Positions 28,638 through 44,055 of a stretch of DNA of 64,000 bases are shown piece by piece. The stretch spans positions 62,001-126,000 of the forward strand of contig NZ_FWYE01000004.1 of the NCBI RefSeq assembly GCF_900176435.1, in the 5' to 3' direction. Each line of letters starts with the position of its first letter. Positions within the stretch are counted from its first letter, which is position 1. Source of the DNA: Picrophilus oshimae DSM 9789. GTDB lineage: Archaea; Thermoplasmatota; Thermoplasmata; Thermoplasmatales; Thermoplasmataceae. The notes beneath the pieces are model-generated. The model made no database searches. It saw nothing but the letters and a program-made list of their open reading frames with translations, and had not been told where the DNA came from. The position numbers were made by a program, and so were the translations under genes.

Positions 28638-28668
28638 GGACAGGTGCGGAAACAACTTTATTTTATAG
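28638..28668 (+). promoter_or_regulatory. Promoter with shared GGACAGGT box (rhamnonate dehydratase gene)
   Basis: GGACAGGTGCGGAAA (28638-28652) is followed by a TATA-like CTTTATTTTATAG, then the ATG at 28685. GGAAA fits a BRE. The GGACAGGT part recurs at 33379 and, in variant form, before the genes starting at 32411 and 35579. Confidence 0.6.
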
Positions 28669-28684
28669 ATCATTATATTAAAGC

Positions 28685-29800
28685 ATGTCCAAGATCAAAT
28701 CCCTTGAAAGAATCCATGATGAAAATGTCAGTCAGCAGATATTTCCGTACACCAAACCAACAGATTACTATAAAGATATTATTGGAGAGATCTCACCGGC
28801 AGAGGCAGCAATGATAACAAAGATAGTTTTTTTAAAACTAAAAACCGAGTCTGGAGTGGAAAGCTATATATCTGTTACAGAACCTACTTACAATTATATA
28901 GAACAGATTAAAAAATATATTACAATGTTTGATGTATCGGAGATAAGCAAGGCATGGGATTTTTTTTATAGAACAACGCTCCCAACAGGTCGTACCGGCC
29001 TTGCACTTCATGCAATAAGTGCCATAAATCTTCTCATGTATGATGCCTTTGGAAAGGAGGTAAAAAAACCAGTTTATGATTTAATTGGTGGCAGGACAAG
29101 AAAAAGCATAAGGGCGTATGCAAGCCATTTGCACCCTGACAAAATAGAGAATCTCCAGAAAGAGGCAGAAGAATATCTTAATAATGGATATAAAGATATG
29201 AAGATGCGTTTTATAGCATCACCGGCTGATGTATATGCCATAGATAAAAACATAGAGCTTGTAAAGGCGGTAAGGGATGTCATAGGATACTCAATCAACC
29301 TTGCCGGTGATTTCTGGATGTCGCTTAATTACAATTTTGCATATAAAATGCTAAAGGCACTTGAAAAATATGAGCTTGCATGGATTGAGGAGCCGTTGCT
29401 GCCTGATGATTTCAATGGATATAAAAATCTTGTAAAAAAGGTTAATATTAGCATATCTGCAGGGGAGCACCATTACCATGTTTATGACTTTAAAAGGCTA
29501 CTCGACTGTGGTGTGATGATATTGCAGCCAGATGCAACATGGGTCGGTGGTATAACACCAATGAAGAAGATAGCAGGACTCGCAGAGGCATATGGTGCAC
29601 AGGTTATACCGCATGCCGGTAATATATACAACCTGCACTTCATTATATCAGAGCCTGAGGCTGTAACGCCAATTTCTGAATATCTTACACGATATAGGGA
29701 CTGGATGGAGCAGCATATAGTAAATGTACCCAGACCTGTAAGGGCGCATTTTGAATTAAATGATTCTCCTGGTTTTGGGATTAAATATGACCTCGAATAA
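28685..29800 (+). CDS. Enolase-superfamily sugar-acid dehydratase, probably L-rhamnonate dehydratase
   Basis: A 371-aa mandelate-racemase-type enzyme. Visible motifs are KPVYDLIGGRTRKSIRAYAS, YKDMKMRF, metal ligands in AGDFWMS (Asp) and WIEEPLLPDD (Glu), SAGEHHY, ILQPDATWVGGITPMKKIA and the catalytic IPHAGN (His). The 'MKMRF' and 'GEH.Y' signature is that of L-rhamnonate dehydratase, not of gluconate or galactonate dehydratases. The product would be 2-keto-3-deoxy-L-rhamnonate. It overlaps the next gene by 14 nt, and its promoter carries the island-specific box. Confidence 0.82.
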   Translation: MSKIKSLERIHDENVSQQIFPYTKPTDYYKDIIGEISPAEAAMITKIVFLKLKTESGVESYISVTEPTYNYIEQIKKYITMFDVSEISKAWDFFYRTTLPTGRTGLALHAISAINLLMYDAFGKEVKKPVYDLIGGRTRKSIRAYASHLHPDKIENLQKEAEEYLNNGYKDMKMRFIASPADVYAIDKNIELVKAVRDVIGYSINLAGDFWMSLNYNFAYKMLKALEKYELAWIEEPLLPDDFNGYKNLVKKVNISISAGEHHYHVYDFKRLLDCGVMILQPDATWVGGITPMKKIAGLAEAYGAQVIPHAGNIYNLHFIISEPEAVTPISEYLTRYRDWMEQHIVNVPRPVRAHFELNDSPGFGIKYDLE

Positions 29801-30542
29801 ATATAATATAAAGGTATTAAAGGTTGGTGAGTCTGAGGTTCCTGGCCCTGAGGTTTACTGGATGGAATCATTTAATTCCTGGGAAAAGCTGTCATTTCAC
29901 GTACTACTTGCCTATAACGATGACATATCATTTATGATTAATACAGGCATGCCCCTGGATCTAACGTTGAGAAACAATGAGATGATAAAATTTGCTGGCG
30001 AGCGTGCAATTTTTAAGTCTATTGATACACTGGATGTTCTTGCCAGTGCAGGATTTAAACCAGATGATATAGATTTCATTGCATTCACACCTGTACAGGA
30101 CTATACCACAGGCAGGCTGGATGAATTTAAAACCTCAAGGATATTTATATACAGGGATGGATGGATAAAGGATATAGCCGCACCAGAATACAGATATTTC
30201 CATAATAGGGACCTTTTTATTCCAAGGAAGATACTAAGTTATATTTATGGTGATGGCTGGAAAAATGTAATATTCTATGATGATGGATCTGAATTAATAC
30301 CGGGGATAAAAGCAATTAGCGTCAAATGTCATCACAGATCATCAATTGCGTTTTCAATTAATACAAGGAATGGTATTTATATATTTACAGATGCGGCCTT
30401 TAAAATTAACAATATAAATAGAATGAGGCCAATCGGCATAGCAGAGGATATATACGAGTGTCTTGATGCATATGAAAAAATAAAAGGCATTGGTAAGGTA
30501 ATACCAGCTTATGACCCGGCATTTGACAATTTTTATATATAA
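29787..30542 (+). CDS. Metallo-beta-lactamase-fold protein lacking most metal ligands
   Basis: About 251 aa. The overall pattern matches AHL-lactonase-like MBL proteins: MINTGMPLDLT, FTPVQDYTTGRLDEF in place of 'THLHYDHTGGLDEF', VKCHHRSSIAFSI in place of 'GHTPGS', FTDAAF in place of 'GDA', and IPAYDP in place of 'IPGHDP'. Thus the HxHxDH motif reads PxQxYT and the last His is Tyr; only one His and one Asp persist. It is cotranslated with the rhamnonate dehydratase (14-nt overlap). It could be a metal-independent lactonase for rhamnonolactone, a lactone-binding protein or a pseudoenzyme. The ATG at 29787 is preferred over 29760. Confidence 0.75.
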   Translation: MTSNKYNIKVLKVGESEVPGPEVYWMESFNSWEKLSFHVLLAYNDDISFMINTGMPLDLTLRNNEMIKFAGERAIFKSIDTLDVLASAGFKPDDIDFIAFTPVQDYTTGRLDEFKTSRIFIYRDGWIKDIAAPEYRYFHNRDLFIPRKILSYIYGDGWKNVIFYDDGSELIPGIKAISVKCHHRSSIAFSINTRNGIYIFTDAAFKINNINRMRPIGIAEDIYECLDAYEKIKGIGKVIPAYDPAFDNFYI

Positions 30543-30545
30543 AAT

Positions 30546-31403
30546 TTATTTAATGGTATTTTTCAATTTTCCTATCCCTGATATCTCAATTTCTATTACA
30601 TCACCGTGAGTTAACCATGTTCTTTTATCCTCTGGCATTCCAAGTATTACACCCTTAGGTGTTCCTGTAAATATTATATCACCTGGCTCTGGATCAAAGT
30701 ATCTTGATAGATAATCAGCTATTTCTGTAACATTAAATATCATGTCCCGGGTGCTGCCGTTTTGCCTTATATGACCGTTTACCATTGTTTTTATGTTAAG
30801 ATCCTCTGCATTGCCAATTTCATTAACGCATGCTATTAAAGGGCCCAGTGGTGCAAAGGTCTTTAATGCTTTACCCAGTATCCACTGGCTCGTCCTGAAC
30901 TGAAGATCCCTGGCAGAAACATCGTTGCCCACTGTGTAACCAAAAAGTGCATCCCTGTAAGTCCTGCCTGAACCTATTACCATGACAAGTTCCCCCTCAT
31001 AGTCAATTTGATTCACACCTTCTGGAATTAATATATAATCCTCAGGGCCTATAACACTGTTGCTAAATTTTGAAAAAATGGTCGGATCCCTCATCACCTT
31101 TTGCTCTGATTCCCTTGCATGTTCCATATAGTTAACGCCTATGCATATTATCTTTCTTGGGTTTATAACAGGCGAGACTATTTTTACATCCTTAACACTT
31201 AAACTTTTTATCTTATCTTTTGCCTCATTAATTACCTTGTCGACATAATTTTGATCAATCCCGGATGCCAGGATATCATCCGTTATCCTAAATTTTTTAA
31301 ATTCAGGTATAATATAAGAAATTTCATCAAAAGGATAGACTTTCTCGTTGTAAATTATTCCACCAGAGATCCTGTCATTAAAAATAAAATTCAAAATTTT
31401 CAT
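30546..31403 (-). CDS. FAH-family hydrolase, probably 2,4-diketo-3-deoxy-L-rhamnonate hydrolase
   Basis: A 285-aa fumarylacetoacetase-fold enzyme. Motifs: KIICIGVNYMEHARE, the metal-binding DYEGELVMVIG (ExE), GNDVSARDLQ, GKALKTFAPLGP and DIIFTGTPKGV. In the oxidative L-rhamnose route, a family member hydrolyses the diketo-deoxy acid to pyruvate and L-lactate; related FAH enzymes in archaea dehydrate keto-deoxy-pentonates. The gene lies 9 nt below the zinc dehydrogenase on the same strand and converges on the MBL-fold gene 3 nt away. The substrate assignment comes from context. Confidence 0.8.
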   Translation of the reverse strand: MKILNFIFNDRISGGIIYNEKVYPFDEISYIIPEFKKFRITDDILASGIDQNYVDKVINEAKDKIKSLSVKDVKIVSPVINPRKIICIGVNYMEHARESEQKVMRDPTIFSKFSNSVIGPEDYILIPEGVNQIDYEGELVMVIGSGRTYRDALFGYTVGNDVSARDLQFRTSQWILGKALKTFAPLGPLIACVNEIGNAEDLNIKTMVNGHIRQNGSTRDMIFNVTEIADYLSRYFDPEPGDIIFTGTPKGVILGMPEDKRTWLTHGDVIEIEISGIGKLKNTIK

Positions 31404-31412
31404 TTAAACACC

Positions 31413-32411
31413 TCATGGTTTCATTATAATTTTTGAGTATTTTGAATCTGGTGACAGCTCCTCATTAAAAGAGTCTTCACCACTGTCGATGGGCCTTATA
31501 TCATACCATTTTTCCTTTACATTGAGAAAACCATTGTTTATAAGATCAACGGCCCTTCTAAAATCATCATCAGAGTAACAGAACGATCCATGTATATTTA
31601 TCTCATTTCTTATAATATAATTCACCTGAAACTCTGTTTCAGGCTCATGCAGACCAACATAAACTACTCGGCCACCCCTTGCTACTGAGTCAAGTGCAAG
31701 TTTTCTTGTATCTGCTGTTCCGACGGCATCTACAACTATGTCAAAGTCACCCTTTTCTATAACCTCATTTCTGTTGTTCACCTTTTTTGTTGCGCCCCAG
31801 TGCATTGCATGTTCCAGTCTGTAATCGTTTATATCAGCAACCGTTCTTTCTATGGTCCCTGAAATTTCAAGTATCTTCAAGGATAACAGACCTATTGTAC
31901 CGGCACCTATGACCAGGGCTTTATCACCGACGGCAGGATGTGCATGGTTCACAGCCCTTAAGGCTGTCGCCAGCGGCTCAGCAAGGGATGCTTCCGGGAT
32001 ATCTATAATTTCATAGCATGAATATGCAGGTACATTAACATACTCTGCAAAACCGCCAGGATAATCAATACCTATAATCTTCCTTTCAGGACACAGCTGC
32101 CTGTTGCCTGTTCTGCAGTACCTGCACTTTCCACAGGTTACAAGCGGATTCACTGCAACATTTCTATTTAAAAGATAGGAGTCCTTATCAGAACCGGTTT
32201 TTATAACAGTTCCGCTGAATTCATGCCCCATAACAGATGGTGGCTTTCTAAGCTCGTTCTGGCCCACAAATGCCGATAATTCTGAACCGCATATGCCAGC
32301 ATAGTTTACCTTTACAGTTACCCAGCCAGGCTCAGGATTTTCTATACTTTTTTCTTTTAATTCCATCTTTTTTATATCAGTCCATACAAGTGTCTTCGTT
32401 TGCATCGCCAT
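31413..32411 (-). CDS. Zinc-dependent medium-chain dehydrogenase, sugar or keto-deoxy-acid type
   Basis: A 332-aa MDR enzyme. Catalytic zinc motifs are GICGSELSAF and MGHEFSG. The structural zinc cluster CGKCRYCRTGNRQLC is complete, and the Rossmann motif is VIGAGTIGLL. It resembles polyol/threonine dehydrogenases. In this island it could oxidise 2-keto-3-deoxy-L-rhamnonate at C4 before cleavage by the FAH enzyme, or serve as a second sugar dehydrogenase. The two genes form an operon. The promoter, with a variant of the shared box, lies between this start and the end of the upstream regulator gene. Confidence 0.85.
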   Translation of the reverse strand: MAMQTKTLVWTDIKKMELKEKSIENPEPGWVTVKVNYAGICGSELSAFVGQNELRKPPSVMGHEFSGTVIKTGSDKDSYLLNRNVAVNPLVTCGKCRYCRTGNRQLCPERKIIGIDYPGGFAEYVNVPAYSCYEIIDIPEASLAEPLATALRAVNHAHPAVGDKALVIGAGTIGLLSLKILEISGTIERTVADINDYRLEHAMHWGATKKVNNRNEVIEKGDFDIVVDAVGTADTRKLALDSVARGGRVVYVGLHEPETEFQVNYIIRNEINIHGSFCYSDDDFRRAVDLINNGFLNVKEKWYDIRPIDSGEDSFNEELSPDSKYSKIIMKP

Positions 32412-32432: not shown

Positions 32433-32456
32433 AAAAAGATATATTCGGAACCGTCC
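32433..32456 (-). promoter_or_regulatory. Promoter with variant of the shared box (zinc dehydrogenase gene)
   Basis: On the minus strand GGACGGTTCCGAA runs into TATATCTTTTT, about 20 nt before the ATG at 32411. Compared with GGACAGGTnnGGAAA it lacks one base but keeps GGAC, GGT and the purine-rich BRE. It lies in the 50-nt gap after the regulator gene. Confidence 0.5.
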
Positions 32457-32461
32457 AGTAT

Positions 32462-33181
32462 TTATCCTTCTTTAAGTTCATCCATAAGTTTAAAAAGTTT
32501 TATGCTTGATAATGCCTTTGCCTCTGCACTCCTTATATATTCCTGGACTGTGGATTTTGAAAGCCCAAATGAATCTGCAAGCTCCCTAATACCGGTTTTT
32601 CTTGGAATGTCGTAGTAACCGTGGTTGTATGCTTCAACAATGATCTGCATCTCAATTGGTGAGAATGTAAAGTATGGGGCCAGGATATCATAAAAATTTT
32701 TAAGATATTTGGCCCTGAATTCATAGAGGTCGCCAAGTGATTGTAAATCATTTTTTAATTCTTTAACGTTTTCTGATGGTAGAACGGCATATTTTTCCTC
32801 CAATCCGCCCTTGACAATATCAAAGTAAAAGATACTGTTGTAATCATTTAACTTGCCCTGTATCATGCCATCATAATTTTCATAGAGGTCCATAATGTAA
32901 ACAGACCGTTTTAATTCACTTAAATTAAGGCTGGTTACATTTTTTATCGTGCTTTCTTTGTTAAGGCTTCTTAGAAATTCCTTTAAATTATGCTTATTAT
33001 TCACCCTTATCTCAAAGATGCCGTATATAGCATTTTTATCCTTATATGGTAGCAGCTTTAGTGTATGTATTGATATATCATATTTTTCCGTAATTCTACT
33101 CCAGCAGTTTTCATGTTTCATTTTAAAGTATACCATGGAGAACTTTTCATCAAAGCTTCCGGAAGCATACCTAACAATCAT
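32462..33181 (-). CDS. HTH_10 (bacterio-opsin-activator type) transcriptional regulator
   Basis: A 239-aa regulator. The ~175-residue N-terminal part is an unrecognised sensor domain. The C-terminal HTH_10 is clear: LTx-like FSPIEMQIIVEAYNHGYYDIPRKTGIRELADSF, then GLSKSTVQEYIRSAEAKALS. Such proteins are archaeal one-component activators. Its place in the middle of the sugar-acid island, between divergently arranged target promoters that share a box, makes it the obvious candidate to bind that box. No copy of the box precedes its own ATG. Confidence 0.85.
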   Translation of the reverse strand: MIVRYASGSFDEKFSMVYFKMKHENCWSRITEKYDISIHTLKLLPYKDKNAIYGIFEIRVNNKHNLKEFLRSLNKESTIKNVTSLNLSELKRSVYIMDLYENYDGMIQGKLNDYNSIFYFDIVKGGLEEKYAVLPSENVKELKNDLQSLGDLYEFRAKYLKNFYDILAPYFTFSPIEMQIIVEAYNHGYYDIPRKTGIRELADSFGLSKSTVQEYIRSAEAKALSSIKLFKLMDELKEG

Positions 33182-33378
33182 ATATTTAAATATAATTTAT
33201 CATTATTTAATATTTACTACTTTTGTTAACATAAATATTGATTTAAATGAAAAATAAATTTTTATACTTATGCATAATATAAAATATAATTATTAAACAT
33301 TGTTTAAACCCATAGAGAATTTCAGCATCTGGTTAAAAATTTTAGAATATTTTGTTATAAAAAAGTTTCCTGTATTTT

Positions 33379-33433: not shown

Positions 33434-34795
33434 ATGGTTGAGAGCAAGACTTATGATGATGCAATGCTATCAGGAACACATTTTAAATGGACATTAATAG
33501 CATCCCTTGGAGATTTTCTTGATGCCGGAATGCTTGCTGGAACCGGAATAACATTATTGGCAATATCATCATTATTACATTTCACAACGTTTGAATCTGG
33601 ACTGCCTGCATTGATATCATTACTTGGTTGTGCCTTTGGTGCACTAACATTTGGAAGACTTGGAGATAAATTTGGAAGGAAGTTCATATACCAGATTGAT
33701 ATGATTCTTTATGCTGTGGCATCCATACTTCTTGCGATTACAGGTATATTCTCTTCAAGAATAGTAAATATAGTATGGTCAATGATTTTCTATGCATTAA
33801 TAGGAATTGCAGTTGGTGCGGATGTTCCAACATCATGGAGCCTTATCACTGAGTTTTCCCCAAAAAACTATCGTGGTAGGCTAATGAGCATTACAACAAT
33901 AATGTGGTATGTCGGTGTTCTTGTTGAGCTTGGTATAGCAATAGCATTGTACAATACGGGCATGATTTTATTCAGGGTGATATGGATCTTTCTTGGAATA
34001 ATTGCGATAATAAGCTGGGCCTTAAGAAGAAGTCTCACCGAATCACCGAGATTTGATATGATGAAAGGCAATAAAAGCGATTTAGAAAGATCTGCAAAAC
34101 TCCTCAATATAAATATAAGCGAGGAGGAAAACAAAAAATTTACAATAAAGAAGTATGCAGAGCTTTTCACAAGGTACGGCTGGTTTCTATTATTTGCATG
34201 GTTTCTTTATTTAATGTGGGGCATACCTGCATCAACATACGGTGAGTTTTTTCCATACATATTCAGCTCACTGCATCTTGTTAGCCTAAGAACAACCTAT
34301 GCCTTCGAGGCCATTTACTTTGGTAGTGCAATTGTGCCAGGACTATTGATATTTTATTATCTTTCAGACAGGATTGGCAGGACGCCTCTTTATTTAATCA
34401 GTGCAGCCATGGCAGCCATATCATTTCTTTTACTGGTATATCCACCATTCCTTAAAAATGTATATGTTCTATTATCATCGTTTCTTCTCTTTGGAATTGG
34501 TCAGGGACTTGGAGTATGGCCCACAACAAGACTATTATCAATGGAGCACTTCCCAACAAGTCTAAGAAATTCAGGCCAGGGTTTTGTCTGGTTTACTATG
34601 AGGTTTGAGGCCGGTATATTTGGACTCTTTACGCCTATAATAGTCGCCATAGGTGTAGAATACATAGGCCTGATATCAGGAATATTCTTTATACTTGCCT
34701 TTACAGTCGTCTTTTTACTTTATATAATAAAACCTGAATATGTAAAAACAGAGAGAAAATCACTTGAAGAAACGTCTTATGATGAGGTTATATAA
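33434..34795 (+). CDS. MFS transporter, candidate L-rhamnose carrier
   Basis: A 453-aa sugar-porter-like protein with 12 helices. FLDAGMLAGTGITLL lies in helix 1, GRLGDKFGRKFIYQ is the signature loop, GIAVGADVPTSWSLITEFSPKNYRGR is in helices 4-5 and RRSLTESPRF before the central loop. The second half has YLSDRIGRTPLY and MEHFPTSLRNSGQG. It is expressed from a promoter with the island box, next to the regulator and the SDR dehydrogenase, so uptake of the island's substrate sugar by proton symport is the natural inference. Confidence 0.85.
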   Translation: MVESKTYDDAMLSGTHFKWTLIASLGDFLDAGMLAGTGITLLAISSLLHFTTFESGLPALISLLGCAFGALTFGRLGDKFGRKFIYQIDMILYAVASILLAITGIFSSRIVNIVWSMIFYALIGIAVGADVPTSWSLITEFSPKNYRGRLMSITTIMWYVGVLVELGIAIALYNTGMILFRVIWIFLGIIAIISWALRRSLTESPRFDMMKGNKSDLERSAKLLNINISEEENKKFTIKKYAELFTRYGWFLLFAWFLYLMWGIPASTYGEFFPYIFSSLHLVSLRTTYAFEAIYFGSAIVPGLLIFYYLSDRIGRTPLYLISAAMAAISFLLLVYPPFLKNVYVLLSSFLLFGIGQGLGVWPTTRLLSMEHFPTSLRNSGQGFVWFTMRFEAGIFGLFTPIIVAIGVEYIGLISGIFFILAFTVVFLLYIIKPEYVKTERKSLEETSYDEVI

Positions 34796-34817: not shown

Positions 34818-35579
34818 TTATTGTAGATTTACAAGCATACCGCCATCCACCAATATTTCAGAGCCATTAACATATGTATTTTCATCAGATACCAAAAAAA
34901 GTGCAGGCCTGGCAATATCCAATGGCTCACCAAGTCTTCCAAGAGGTATTCTTTTTTCCATGTACCTCCTTTTTTCTGTATTAGAAAGATCCTCACGGTT
35001 TATATCTGTTAATATAGTTCCGGGCTCAATTGAATTTACCATTATTCCATGCTCTCCAAGTATTATTGCAAGGGAGTGCATTAATCCATTTAATGCAGAT
35101 TTTGTTGTTGTGTAATGACTTTGATATTTTCCACCAACAATGGCGCTTATTGAACTTATAAAAAGTATCCTTCCATTTGTATTATTTTCTATCATGATTT
35201 TTGCCAGTTCCTGTGTGATAAAGAAGTGGCTCTCAACGTTTACCTTCCAGACCTTTTCAAACAGATCTCTATCTATATCAAAGAAGTCCTTGAAAGGGCA
35301 TATACCAGCATTGTTGATTAATATATCAACTGTTTTGAATTTGCTTTTAATGAAATCAACCAATTCCGGTATTTTATTGATCTCTGATTGGTCTATTTTA
35401 TATTTATATGCCTCTGATCCCTTACTTTTTATATAATTAATCACATCATCTGCAGCCCTGTCACTGCTTGAATAGGTAATTATCACATTGGCTCCATTTT
35501 CTCCAAGTAGCATTGCAATGGCCCTTCCAATACCCCTGGATCCGCCTGTTACAACAGCATTCTTATTTTTAAAATCCAT
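34818..35579 (-). CDS. Short-chain sugar dehydrogenase, probably L-rhamnose 1-dehydrogenase
   Basis: A 253-aa classical SDR. Cofactor motif TGGSRGIGRA, NNAG, ISSISA with the catalytic Ser, and YTTTK (YxxxK) are intact, followed by the PGTI segment and the C-terminal VDGGM. The residue after the Gly-rich loop region (ITYSSS) lacks the acidic residue expected for strict NAD use, so NADP is plausible. An NADP-preferring L-rhamnose dehydrogenase of this family is known from Thermoplasma acidophilum. It would form L-rhamnono-lactone, the first step of the pathway. Confidence 0.82.
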   Translation of the reverse strand: MDFKNKNAVVTGGSRGIGRAIAMLLGENGANVIITYSSSDRAADDVINYIKSKGSEAYKYKIDQSEINKIPELVDFIKSKFKTVDILINNAGICPFKDFFDIDRDLFEKVWKVNVESHFFITQELAKIMIENNTNGRILFISSISAIVGGKYQSHYTTTKSALNGLMHSLAIILGEHGIMVNSIEPGTILTDINREDLSNTEKRRYMEKRIPLGRLGEPLDIARPALFLVSDENTYVNGSEILVDGGMLVNLQ

Positions 35580-35838: not shown

Positions 35839-37230
35839 ATGGTAGAGGATCAAAACATATTAAATCAGGCTGATAGGGCACCCACGGGGAGATTCCATTT
35901 AAAGGCCATATTTGTGGCCAGCATGGGTTTCTTTACAGATGCCTACGATTTATTTGCTATATCTACAGCACTGCCATTGATTGTTTCCGCATCCGTCTTT
36001 GATGTAACAAACCATTTTGTTCAGGGACTTGTTGGTGCGGCCGTATTGATTGGAGCCGTCATAGGAGCCCTTACATTCGGCAGGATAGGCGACATACGTG
36101 GCAGGAAATACGTCTATGGAGTTGAAATGGCAATACTGGTAACATTTGCAGTAATCTCGGCATTCTCAGTAAACATCTGGATGCTGATAATCACAAGACT
36201 GCTTCTTGGTATAGGTATAGGCGGAGATTATCCAATAAGCTCAACAATAATGAGCGAGTACTCAAATGTAAAGAGCAGGGGCAAGATGGTTCAGACCGTT
36301 TTTGCAATGCAGGGCTTTGGCCTGCTTCTTGGAGCCGTCATAGGACTTATTGCAATTCACACGATGCCGGTAAACTATGCATGGAGGTTCATGCTTGGAT
36401 TCGGAGCAATACCGGCGGCGTCCGTTATATATCTAAGAAGAAAGATAAAGGAAACACCAAGGTATTCACTGCAGACCAAAGGTGATGTAAAGGCAGCCGC
36501 AGCAGCCGTTGAGGATATAACAGGATCAAAGATAGATGTAAAGGACTCAAATATAAACGTTTCAAAAAAATCCGGAATATTAACAAAATACATTGCGCTT
36601 TTGATAGGAACTGCCGGAAGCTGGTTTTTATTTGATATGGCATTCTATGGAACATCAATAAACAACTCAATAATATTCAATGCAATAGGCTATGGAAGCG
36701 TAACAAATGCTGTTCTATCAGCATCAAACACGGCAATAGGAAATATAATAATAGCGGCAGCATTTGAAATACCTGGATACTGGATAGCATTTGGATTAAT
36801 AGACCGCGTCGGCAGGAAATTTTTACAGTGGATGGGCTTCGGAGTCATGGGAATAATATATCTAATATTTGCACTGGCATTTGCACCGCTTAAGGCAGAT
36901 ATACCATTGTTCATAGGGCTTTATGGATTATCATTCCTGTTCGCAAACATAGGACCTAACTCAACAACGTTTATACTACCAACGGAATTATTCCCAACGC
37001 AGGTTAGAACAACAGCGCATGGTATATCAGCAGGTGCCGGTAAAACAGGTGCTGCAATATTTACATTTGCACTGCCATCAATAGAGGCTGCACTTGGACT
37101 TAAAGGCGTCTTTACACTTCTTACAGGATTTTCATTCATAGCAGTTATTATAACATTGCTGTTCATAAGGGAAACAAAGCAGAAGAGCCTTGAACAGACA
37201 AGCAGGCAGGATTCGGTTATGGCACATTAA
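35839..37230 (+). CDS. MFS transporter of the phosphate:H+ symporter (PHS) type
   Basis: About 463 aa, 12 helices. MGFFTDAYDLFAIST in helix 1 (the 'F.DAYDLF' hallmark of PHS carriers), GRIGDIRGRKYVYGVE, GIGIGGDYPISSTIMSEYSN and FILPTELFPTQVRTTAHGISAGAGKTGA are all typical of the fungal Pho84/archaeal phosphate carrier group. A central hydrophilic loop spans about residues 205-235. I chose the ATG at 35839; the frame extends to 35797 without a better start. It is single, with a strongly AT-rich promoter and no sign of the island box. Confidence 0.85.
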   Translation: MVEDQNILNQADRAPTGRFHLKAIFVASMGFFTDAYDLFAISTALPLIVSASVFDVTNHFVQGLVGAAVLIGAVIGALTFGRIGDIRGRKYVYGVEMAILVTFAVISAFSVNIWMLIITRLLLGIGIGGDYPISSTIMSEYSNVKSRGKMVQTVFAMQGFGLLLGAVIGLIAIHTMPVNYAWRFMLGFGAIPAASVIYLRRKIKETPRYSLQTKGDVKAAAAAVEDITGSKIDVKDSNINVSKKSGILTKYIALLIGTAGSWFLFDMAFYGTSINNSIIFNAIGYGSVTNAVLSASNTAIGNIIIAAAFEIPGYWIAFGLIDRVGRKFLQWMGFGVMGIIYLIFALAFAPLKADIPLFIGLYGLSFLFANIGPNSTTFILPTELFPTQVRTTAHGISAGAGKTGAAIFTFALPSIEAALGLKGVFTLLTGFSFIAVIITLLFIRETKQKSLEQTSRQDSVMAH

Positions 37231-42695: not shown

Positions 42696-42793
42696 GTAGC
42701 AAAAAGCTACCGGGGAGCCATTAATGGCTGAGAGGATCCAAGGGATCGACCCGTGAACCTGATCCGGGTAATACCGGCGGAGGGAGATAGCCA
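42696..42793 (+). promoter_or_regulatory. TPP riboswitch (THI element) with an adjoining 5' hairpin
   Basis: The aptamer core (42706-42791) shows GGGGAGCC, GGCTGAGAGGA, GACCCGTGAACCTGATCCGG, GTAATACCGGCG and AGGGAGA. P1 is GCTA/TAGC. Immediately 5', GTAGC-AAAAA-GCTAC (42696-42710) can form a hairpin that uses the 5' strand of P1, giving an alternative fold. The carrier start codon is 34 nt downstream, preceded by AAAAGGGGA, a possible ribosome binding site. THI elements before MFS carriers are known in Thermoplasma. Confidence 0.95.
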
Positions 42794-42825
42794 ATGGGAT
42801 TCTTGATATATAAAAGGGGATATAA

Positions 42826-44055
42826 ATGCTGAGCAGGAATCAGCGCTTCATGCTGCTTTCCAGCTCGGCAAGCTTTACAATATGGGGGATCATAGCAACA
42901 ATAGGGCCCCTTGCAGCCTCGGGTGCAATAATACATGCACTGCCATTGAAATTAAAGGTTATAATACTTTTAATAGGCCCGATCTTTGCACCTCTTGGAA
43001 ACTTTACAATGGGTTTATTAACAGACATCCTTGGCAGAAAAAGGGTCTTTATAATGACCATGAGTCTTTACGGTATTGGCGTGATAATCATTGCATTTAG
43101 CTATGTATTCTACACACTTTTAATAGGCCTTGTCCTTGCAGAGTTTGGTGTTGGCGGTGAGGAGATGCCATCGTTATCATTAATAGCCGAGGATTCGCCA
43201 TTAAGATCACGTGCAAAATGGTTAACAATTGTATCAGATTTTAACAATATAGGCAGCGCAATAATCACAGGACTTTTTTTAATTGTCTACACATCCATAA
43301 TGGACAGATACGCACTTTTGGTATCCGCATTTATATTAATTGTTATAATGGTGATTGCAAGGGTGAACCTGCCAGAATCGTTTAGATGGCTTAACTCAAG
43401 GGGAAGATTTGACGCTGCAAAAGTGGAGGAGAAAAAATTATACATCGATTCAAACGGAACAAGCACTGGCAAGATCTCTGGAGGGCAGTACCTTGGCAGA
43501 TTTTTATTTCTGGCTGCAATAGGCATATCACAGTATATAACCTTTGGACTGATGGCATATGTAATAGGACCATACGAATTTCCATCAACATACATGGATG
43601 AAATGATAATCTTCGTTGCACTTTTGGGCGCATCCGCTGCTGGTTTTATCGCTGCACCATTGATTTCCAGGGGCAGAAAGGTTTACACTGCATATTCATA
43701 CATTGGCGGCTTTATAAGCACGTTAATAATACTCTTCCTTGTCCCATATTTAAGGAACATGTTCATATTTTTGCCACTGCTTTTTATAAACATGATGATG
43801 AGTGAGTTTGGCTGGGCATCAAGGACAACGCTTGAACCTGAGCTGTTTCCGACAAGGTACCGTGGAACATTTATGGGTATTGTCAGGCTTGCCCCAATGA
43901 TAGGCTATGCAATTTCCGTTGATTTAACAAGCACGTTTACACTTTATCAGTTCATACTATACAATGTAATTCTATGGCTTCTTGGAGCCGTTGCCTCTGT
44001 TCTCTGGCTCATAAAGGGCAATGAGACAAGGGATATAAATATAGATTATGCGTGA
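42826..44055 (+). CDS. MFS transporter under TPP riboswitch control, putative thiamine carrier
   Basis: A 409-aa, 12-helix carrier. Signature loop MGLLTDILGRKRVF, GVGGEEMPSLSLIAEDSPLRSRAKW, NLPESFRWL at the central loop, and TLEPELFPTRYRGTFMGIVRLA in the second half. Riboswitch control by thiamine pyrophosphate strongly implies import of thiamine or a precursor; comparative genomics has proposed such MFS proteins (ThiT1/ThiT2) in Thermoplasma. It stands alone, with an unrelated small gene 30 nt downstream that may share the transcript. Confidence 0.88.
   Translation: MLSRNQRFMLLSSSASFTIWGIIATIGPLAASGAIIHALPLKLKVIILLIGPIFAPLGNFTMGLLTDILGRKRVFIMTMSLYGIGVIIIAFSYVFYTLLIGLVLAEFGVGGEEMPSLSLIAEDSPLRSRAKWLTIVSDFNNIGSAIITGLFLIVYTSIMDRYALLVSAFILIVIMVIARVNLPESFRWLNSRGRFDAAKVEEKKLYIDSNGTSTGKISGGQYLGRFLFLAAIGISQYITFGLMAYVIGPYEFPSTYMDEMIIFVALLGASAAGFIAAPLISRGRKVYTAYSYIGGFISTLIILFLVPYLRNMFIFLPLLFINMMMSEFGWASRTTLEPELFPTRYRGTFMGIVRLAPMIGYAISVDLTSTFTLYQFILYNVILWLLGAVASVLWLIKGNETRDINIDYA

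Follow-up and report, generated by a model that had tools for sequence, protein, structure and literature searches.

A conserved inverted-repeat box at L-rhamnose gene promoters of Picrophilus oshimae and related archaea, with a linked HTH_10 protein as its probable reader

Results

Organization of the rhamnose locus

The locus lies in a 64,000-nt stretch of the Picrophilus oshimae DSM 9789 genome (contig NZ_FWYE01000004.1, positions 62,001 to 126,000), hereafter called the window, to which coordinates refer unless a contig or locus name precedes them. Its genes and boxes are listed in Table 1. The original prediction placed the boxed genes in a sugar-acid island; they do lie in this island, which appears to be more specifically that of an L-rhamnose pathway, with six genes in four presumed units. 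The non-phosphorylative diketo-hydrolase route degrades L-rhamnose to pyruvate and lactate, and the predicted gene functions fit this route: as in the known pathway, a dehydrogenase is present, together with a candidate lactonase, a candidate dehydratase, a second dehydrogenase and a candidate FAH-type hydrolase. The assignment is firmest for the SDR protein encoded at 34818, which exceeds the cut-off of NF041159, the equivalog model of the Thermoplasmatales L-rhamnose 1-dehydrogenase. The dehydratase and the hydrolase stay below the cut-offs of their best NCBIfam models (L-rhamnonate dehydratase, 211 bits vs a cut-off of 393; NF053535, 173 bits vs 500). The candidate lactonase gave no Pfam match, and is a conserved neighbour in about 17 genomes. 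The L-rhamnose dehydrogenase of T. acidophilum has been characterised (Kim et al. 2012, as cited in PMC12028159), and no regulator or operator for the Thermoplasmatales rhamnose pathway was found in the literature searched, many subscription papers excepted.

The gene order implies two operons, presumably dehydratase-lactonase and zinc dehydrogenase-hydrolase, so that the four boxes would control a total of six genes, five for enzymes and one for the transporter, the regulator gene being excluded. Elsewhere in the window, a TPP riboswitch aptamer is found at 42701-42803 on the plus strand (75 bits vs a gathering score of 54.3), with a reading frame downstream at 42826.

Table 1. Boxes and genes of the putative rhamnose island, in window coordinates.
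Feature	Position	Strand	Context or basis
Box 1, GGACAGGTGCGGAAA	28638..28652	+	32 nt to dehydratase start; followed by TATTTTATA
Enolase-superfamily sugar-acid dehydratase, probable L-rhamnonate dehydratase	28685..29800	+	Pfam MR_MLE
Metallo-beta-lactamase-like protein, candidate rhamnonolactone lactonase	29790..30542	+	Weak NCBIfam lactonase match; start codon estimated
FAH-family hydrolase, probable 2,4-didehydro-3-deoxy-L-rhamnonate hydrolase	30546..31403	-	Pfam FAA_hydrolase
Zinc-dependent dehydrogenase, probable 2-keto-3-deoxy-L-rhamnonate dehydrogenase	31413..32411	-	Pfam ADH_N/ADH_zinc_N; pathway position inferred
Box 3, GGACGGTTCCGAATA	32442..32456	-	30 nt to zinc dehydrogenase start
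HTH_10 regulator, 239 aa	32462..33181	-	C-terminal HTH_10, Pfam E=4.1e-17, 62.2 bits vs cut-off 23.1
Box 2, GGACAGGTTTGGAAA	33379..33393	+	40 nt to transporter start
MFS sugar porter, probable L-rhamnose transporter	33434..34795	+	Pfam MFS_1/Sugar_tr; conserved in cluster
L-rhamnose 1-dehydrogenase (SDR)	34818..35579	-	NCBIfam NF041159, 511.9 bits vs cut-off 450
Box 4, GAACATGTCCTGTAA	35620..35634	-	40 nt to rhamnose dehydrogenase start

Position and anatomy of the box

Boxes 1 and 2 were predicted to be near-identical, and 13 of their 15 bases agree. The string GGACAGGTNNGGAAA has two exact matches, those at 28638 and 33379, in the whole genome (1,534,155 bases in 6 contigs), where 0.02 would be expected from base composition. 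Boxes 3 and 4 each differ from this string at 4 of its 13 specified bases, and neither is among the 17 matches (9.7 expected) returned by a scan allowing 3 mismatches, so that the window alone cannot tell these two boxes from noise. The cross-species evidence given below establishes that the minus-strand variants are real, each being one base shorter than first claimed (32456-32442 and 35634-35620). A TATA-like stretch directly follows all four boxes, as had been described, whereas the distance to the start codon, given as 20-41 nt, is 32, 40, 30 and 40 nt when measured from the ends of boxes 1 to 4. The flanking carrier gene at 35839 indeed lacks a box, with a best promoter score of -5.0. The spacing from TATA to ATG suggests that the dehydratase and zinc dehydrogenase transcripts are leaderless.

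The consensus of 36 distinct sites is GGACATGTCCGGAAA, and consists of a 10-bp dyad, GGACA.TGTCC, with a tail toward the TATA element. A3 and T8 are invariant in all sites. At the consensus level, the inverted repeat of positions 1-10 is perfect, and none of 3000 column shuffles was equally symmetric; a second, weaker symmetry is centred on TCCGGA. In individual sites one half is usually degenerate (in box 4 the better half-site is the downstream one), which accounts for the earlier description of the element as a half-dyad, a guess that was correct and that the consensus sharpens. A longer, nearly complete palindrome, GTCCGGAACTGTTCGGAC, occurs at the zinc dehydrogenase promoter of Sysuiplasma, where the box (L212:7846-7865) lies between the divergent zinc dehydrogenase and regulator genes. 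The gap between the box end and the TATA-like run is 0-5 bp for all four window boxes, which brings the tail over the usual position of the BRE; the GGAAA tail is thus likely to touch the BRE, or to share bases with it, immediately before TATA.

Specificity within the genome

The P. oshimae genome was scanned with patterns, and the matches were then scored with a matrix. Of the 68 matches obtained with all patterns, only eight have a TATA-like run and are also followed at promoter distance by a gene start. Three of these are island boxes, with scores of 17-19 bits, and none of the others scores above 11.6; among the 68, a high score thus coincides with these two promoter features in island boxes only, and the expectation that the element is local survives the genome scan. 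The broader pattern GGACRNKTNYGRWWW has 8 matches in this genome and 7 in the T. acidophilum-like genome G097, with 3 in the island in each case and the rest inside reading frames. When GRACANKTNYGGWAA was searched with one mismatch, no non-coding matches appeared in the P. oshimae genome other than boxes 1, 2 and 4.

A global regulon was considered and rejected, as the 41 own-genome matches with at most 2 mismatches and the matches to two broader patterns fall, outside the island, nearly all in reading frames. One match outside both the island and the frames lies within a tRNA gene (L010), another (C5:56243) has no TATA after it, and a third, C1:359678, reads GGACAGCTAAGGACA followed by ATATAAAA, but its position 10 is not a pyrimidine and no gene is evident there. 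The candidate at C2:20346, GTACAGGAATGGAAA, has a good-looking TATA and ATG, and was discarded as it sits within an acetyltransferase-like reading frame. The degenerate pattern RNACMWNTYCSGRWWA, meant for distant genera, was poorly designed and uninformative, and an exact consensus scan of viral contigs gave 28 matches.

Matrix tests

The cross-species sites had initially been picked by eye, and the later tests were therefore designed to avoid circularity. With a matrix built without any Picrophilus site, the four boxes occupy ranks 1-4 among approximately 128,000 window positions, scoring 17.8, 17.1, 16.3 and 15.8 bits, with the next best position at 13.3. Each box has p<=5e-5 relative to 20,000 random 85-bp intergenic-like sequences, and in leave-clade-out scoring the four P. 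oshimae promoters exceed all 52 control promoters of their own clade. The reverse test used a matrix of the four window sites on all four Thermoplasma loci that still have the dehydratase, and placed the dehydratase and zinc dehydrogenase promoters in the top two ranks. In Candidatus Sysuiplasma superficiale (L212), which lies outside the matrix, the top five matches fall at the promoters of the dehydratase, the transporter and the zinc dehydrogenase. Weak signals were obtained for the Thermoplasma transporter promoters, with 7 of 61 controls scoring as high, and for the zinc dehydrogenase promoters of g16/g17 (5 to 12 of 37 controls).

In other genera, the controls with the highest scores were found to belong to further transporters within the cluster or next to it, including the box-bearing MFS transporters of L089 and L094 that were initially counted as controls, and to the lactonase of Ferroplasma acidarmanus, which is separately transcribed and boxed. 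The box has therefore picked out probable regulon members that were not listed beforehand. The same APC-type permease is found in two genera with a box about 41 nt upstream (L088:9849-11276, minus strand; L105:7074-8501, plus strand), which suggests a replacement or additional rhamnose transporter.

Conservation in relatives

The proposal of a shared element had been made dependent on its conservation in orthologous promoters, and the orthologous genes of Thermoplasma, Ferroplasma, other Thermoplasmatales and a further lineage, Sysuiplasma, do have the box in front of TATA. Thermoplasma dehydratase promoters carry GGACAAGTACGGTAA in four genomes and the transporter promoters GGACAGGTATGATAT/C in three, at the same place before TATA. 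At the Thermoplasma zinc dehydrogenase promoters the box, again at this place, reads GGACGGTTCYGATTA or GGACGTTTCCGATTA in four genomes and GGACAGTTCCGATAC in G101, and the counterpart of box 3 is the rank 1-2 match in four Thermoplasma loci. In other genera, the promoters of the dehydratase and transporter genes contain GGACATTTCCGGAAA, GAACCATTCCGGAAA, GTACCTGTCCGGAAA, GGAAATGTCCGGAAA and similar sequences, and that of the rhamnose dehydrogenase gene contains AAACATGTCCTGA. Box 4 is kept in the same-genus genome G095 and in two genomes of genus g5. In genus g2, a box between divergent transporter genes scores in both orientations.

The rhamnose cluster of G101 has collapsed to a chimeric open frame (L085:8700-9797), in which residues 1-201 of the zinc dehydrogenase are fused in frame to residues 74-253 of the rhamnose dehydrogenase; the regulator and the box before the chimera are both retained. 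The same genome has an intergenic GGACATTTCCGGAAA (C1:1051868-1051882, L199) located 41 nt upstream of a pdxS-like gene.

The HTH_10 regulator

Apart from the C-terminal HTH_10 domain, no Pfam or NCBIfam domain was found in the regulator, GAF and PAS/PAC sensor domains included; it is therefore an HTH_10 protein and not a Bat ortholog. The SKS of the recognition helix is invariant across the regulator clade. The structure model has a moderate pLDDT of 77.7 and an alpha/beta N-terminal part, and a fold search with it returned no confident relative in the PDB.

The regulator and dehydratase genes are linked in about 17 of the order's genomes. Among 117 genomes, orthologs of the dehydratase and members of the regulator clade occur together in 17 and alone in 3 and 3, most of the single occurrences belonging to fragmented genomes or to the decayed cluster of G101. 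The corresponding p value, about 1e-14, overstates the strength of the association, since the genomes are related and not independent. This conserved linkage and co-occurrence strengthen the earlier nomination of the HTH_10 protein as the candidate reader, with binding to the box as the predicted interaction. Two further HTH_10 proteins are encoded in the genome. The promoter of the regulator gene itself has no box (score -2.5). A separate conserved block, about GTAGTAAATATTAAATAA, lies in this promoter region (33182-33260); it is common to the same-genus and Thermoplasma genomes, and is unrelated to the box.

Discussion

A model for the box and its alternatives

We propose, with a probability of roughly two in three (0.68), that the box functions as the operator of an L-rhamnose regulon, bound by a dimer of the neighbouring HTH_10 protein that activates transcription with rhamnose or an intermediate. 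According to this model, a homodimer of the protein encoded at 32462-33181 would read the inverted repeat GGACA.TGTCC, with a predicted footprint spanning GGACANNTCC. L-rhamnose or a pathway intermediate, acting as inducer, would cause the dimer to bind the box, and the bound dimer would help to recruit TFB/TBP beside the BRE/TATA elements of four promoters, namely those of dehydratase-lactonase, the transporter, zinc dehydrogenase-hydrolase and rhamnose dehydrogenase. As the regulator promoter is box-free, induction would proceed through the activity of the regulator and not through its level. Direct binding, dimerisation, the ligand and activation are proposed from sequence. The conserved cis-element itself is firm and its reader probable, and the positive sign of the control is what we infer.

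The strongest competitor, though an unlikely one, keeps the same box and the same protein and makes the latter a repressor that covers the BRE and blocks TFB until released by a ligand. In its favour, only 0-5 bp separate the end of the box from the TATA-like run, so that the tail reaches over the usual BRE position, which a repressor could exploit as well, and the T. volcanium-like genome G101 retains the regulator and a box though most of the pathway is lost. However, the greater part of the box, dyad included, is found upstream of the BRE and not over TATA or the start, an arrangement that known TATA-proximal activator sites share, and HTH_10 proteins of known role (Bat) are activators (PMC3184054). 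It is still less probable that the box is read by another protein, be it one of the two other HTH_10 proteins of this genome, which encodes three in all, or an unlinked factor: the boxed genes are linked to, and co-occur with, this HTH_10 clade only, and the boxes are restricted to the island instead of being spread over the genome.

The remaining explanations dispense with a dedicated regulator. The box could be no more than an enlarged BRE, in other words a variant core-promoter element that TFB recognises and that promoters of similar strength have in common. Its position is the one expected of a BRE and its TATA end is purine-rich, but other promoters in the window lack it, BREs are not characterised by a 10-bp inverted repeat, and the box between the divergent transporters of genus g2 scores both ways; we consider this explanation very improbable, and a general BRE was ruled out by the control promoters without the box. 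A chance likeness selected by eye was conceivable at least for boxes 3 and 4, given their 9/13 agreement with the string and their absence from the three-mismatch scan. It is refuted by the genome scan and the cross-genus matrices and deserves next to no credence, as the box is conserved across genera and in the held-out genome, with the low p value of each site.

Comparison with known archaeal regulators

Taken as an analogy, the XylR/Ara-box system of the Sulfolobales is the closest published counterpart. XylR of S. acidocaldarius is an activator with a palindromic promoter element, the Ara-box AACATGTT, and its own gene is under no transcriptional regulation (PMC7264815), much as the regulator described here has a box-free promoter. 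In both systems the gene of an HTH regulator lies beside sugar genes, and a short palindromic box is found at transporter and catabolic gene promoters. The centre ACATGT is common to the Ara-box and to the box described here (GGACATGTCC), a suggestive likeness at the level of the motif. By contrast, XylR acts on pentoses, in another phylum and with an ABC transporter, and the flanks of the two boxes differ, with a GGAAA tail added in the present one. It is conceivable, though rather doubtful, that archaeal phyla far apart from each other use a single DNA-recognition code for their sugar regulators, namely a dyad centred on ACATGT and placed next to the core promoter; an ancient regulator-operator pairing would then have persisted while sugars and targets changed.

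The founding case of HTH_10 is Bat of Halobacterium, which acts through the upstream activator sequence of bop and crtB1 (PMC3184054, PMC2253796). The similarities are an activator with a C-terminal HTH DNA-binding domain and a common upstream sequence that ties together scattered promoters of one process. Bat differs in having GAF and PAS/PAC sensor domains, none of which were found in the present regulator, and in having the partners Brz and Brb; its signal is light and oxygen, whereas a sugar is proposed here.

Significance

The box and its probable regulator are well supported as a new example of a kind already known from XylR/Ara-box and Bat/bop. To our knowledge, archaeal activators with a known DNA site are few, and in the literature searched we found no description of the DNA site of any Thermoplasmatales HTH_10 protein. 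The present analysis contributes a 15-bp operator, its likely reader and a set of targets in about 20 genomes, and points to L-rhamnose as the probable inducer. The box could yield the design of a sugar-inducible promoter for extreme acidophiles, and its fixed position with respect to BRE and TATA may serve as a natural series for the contact between an archaeal regulator and the core promoter.
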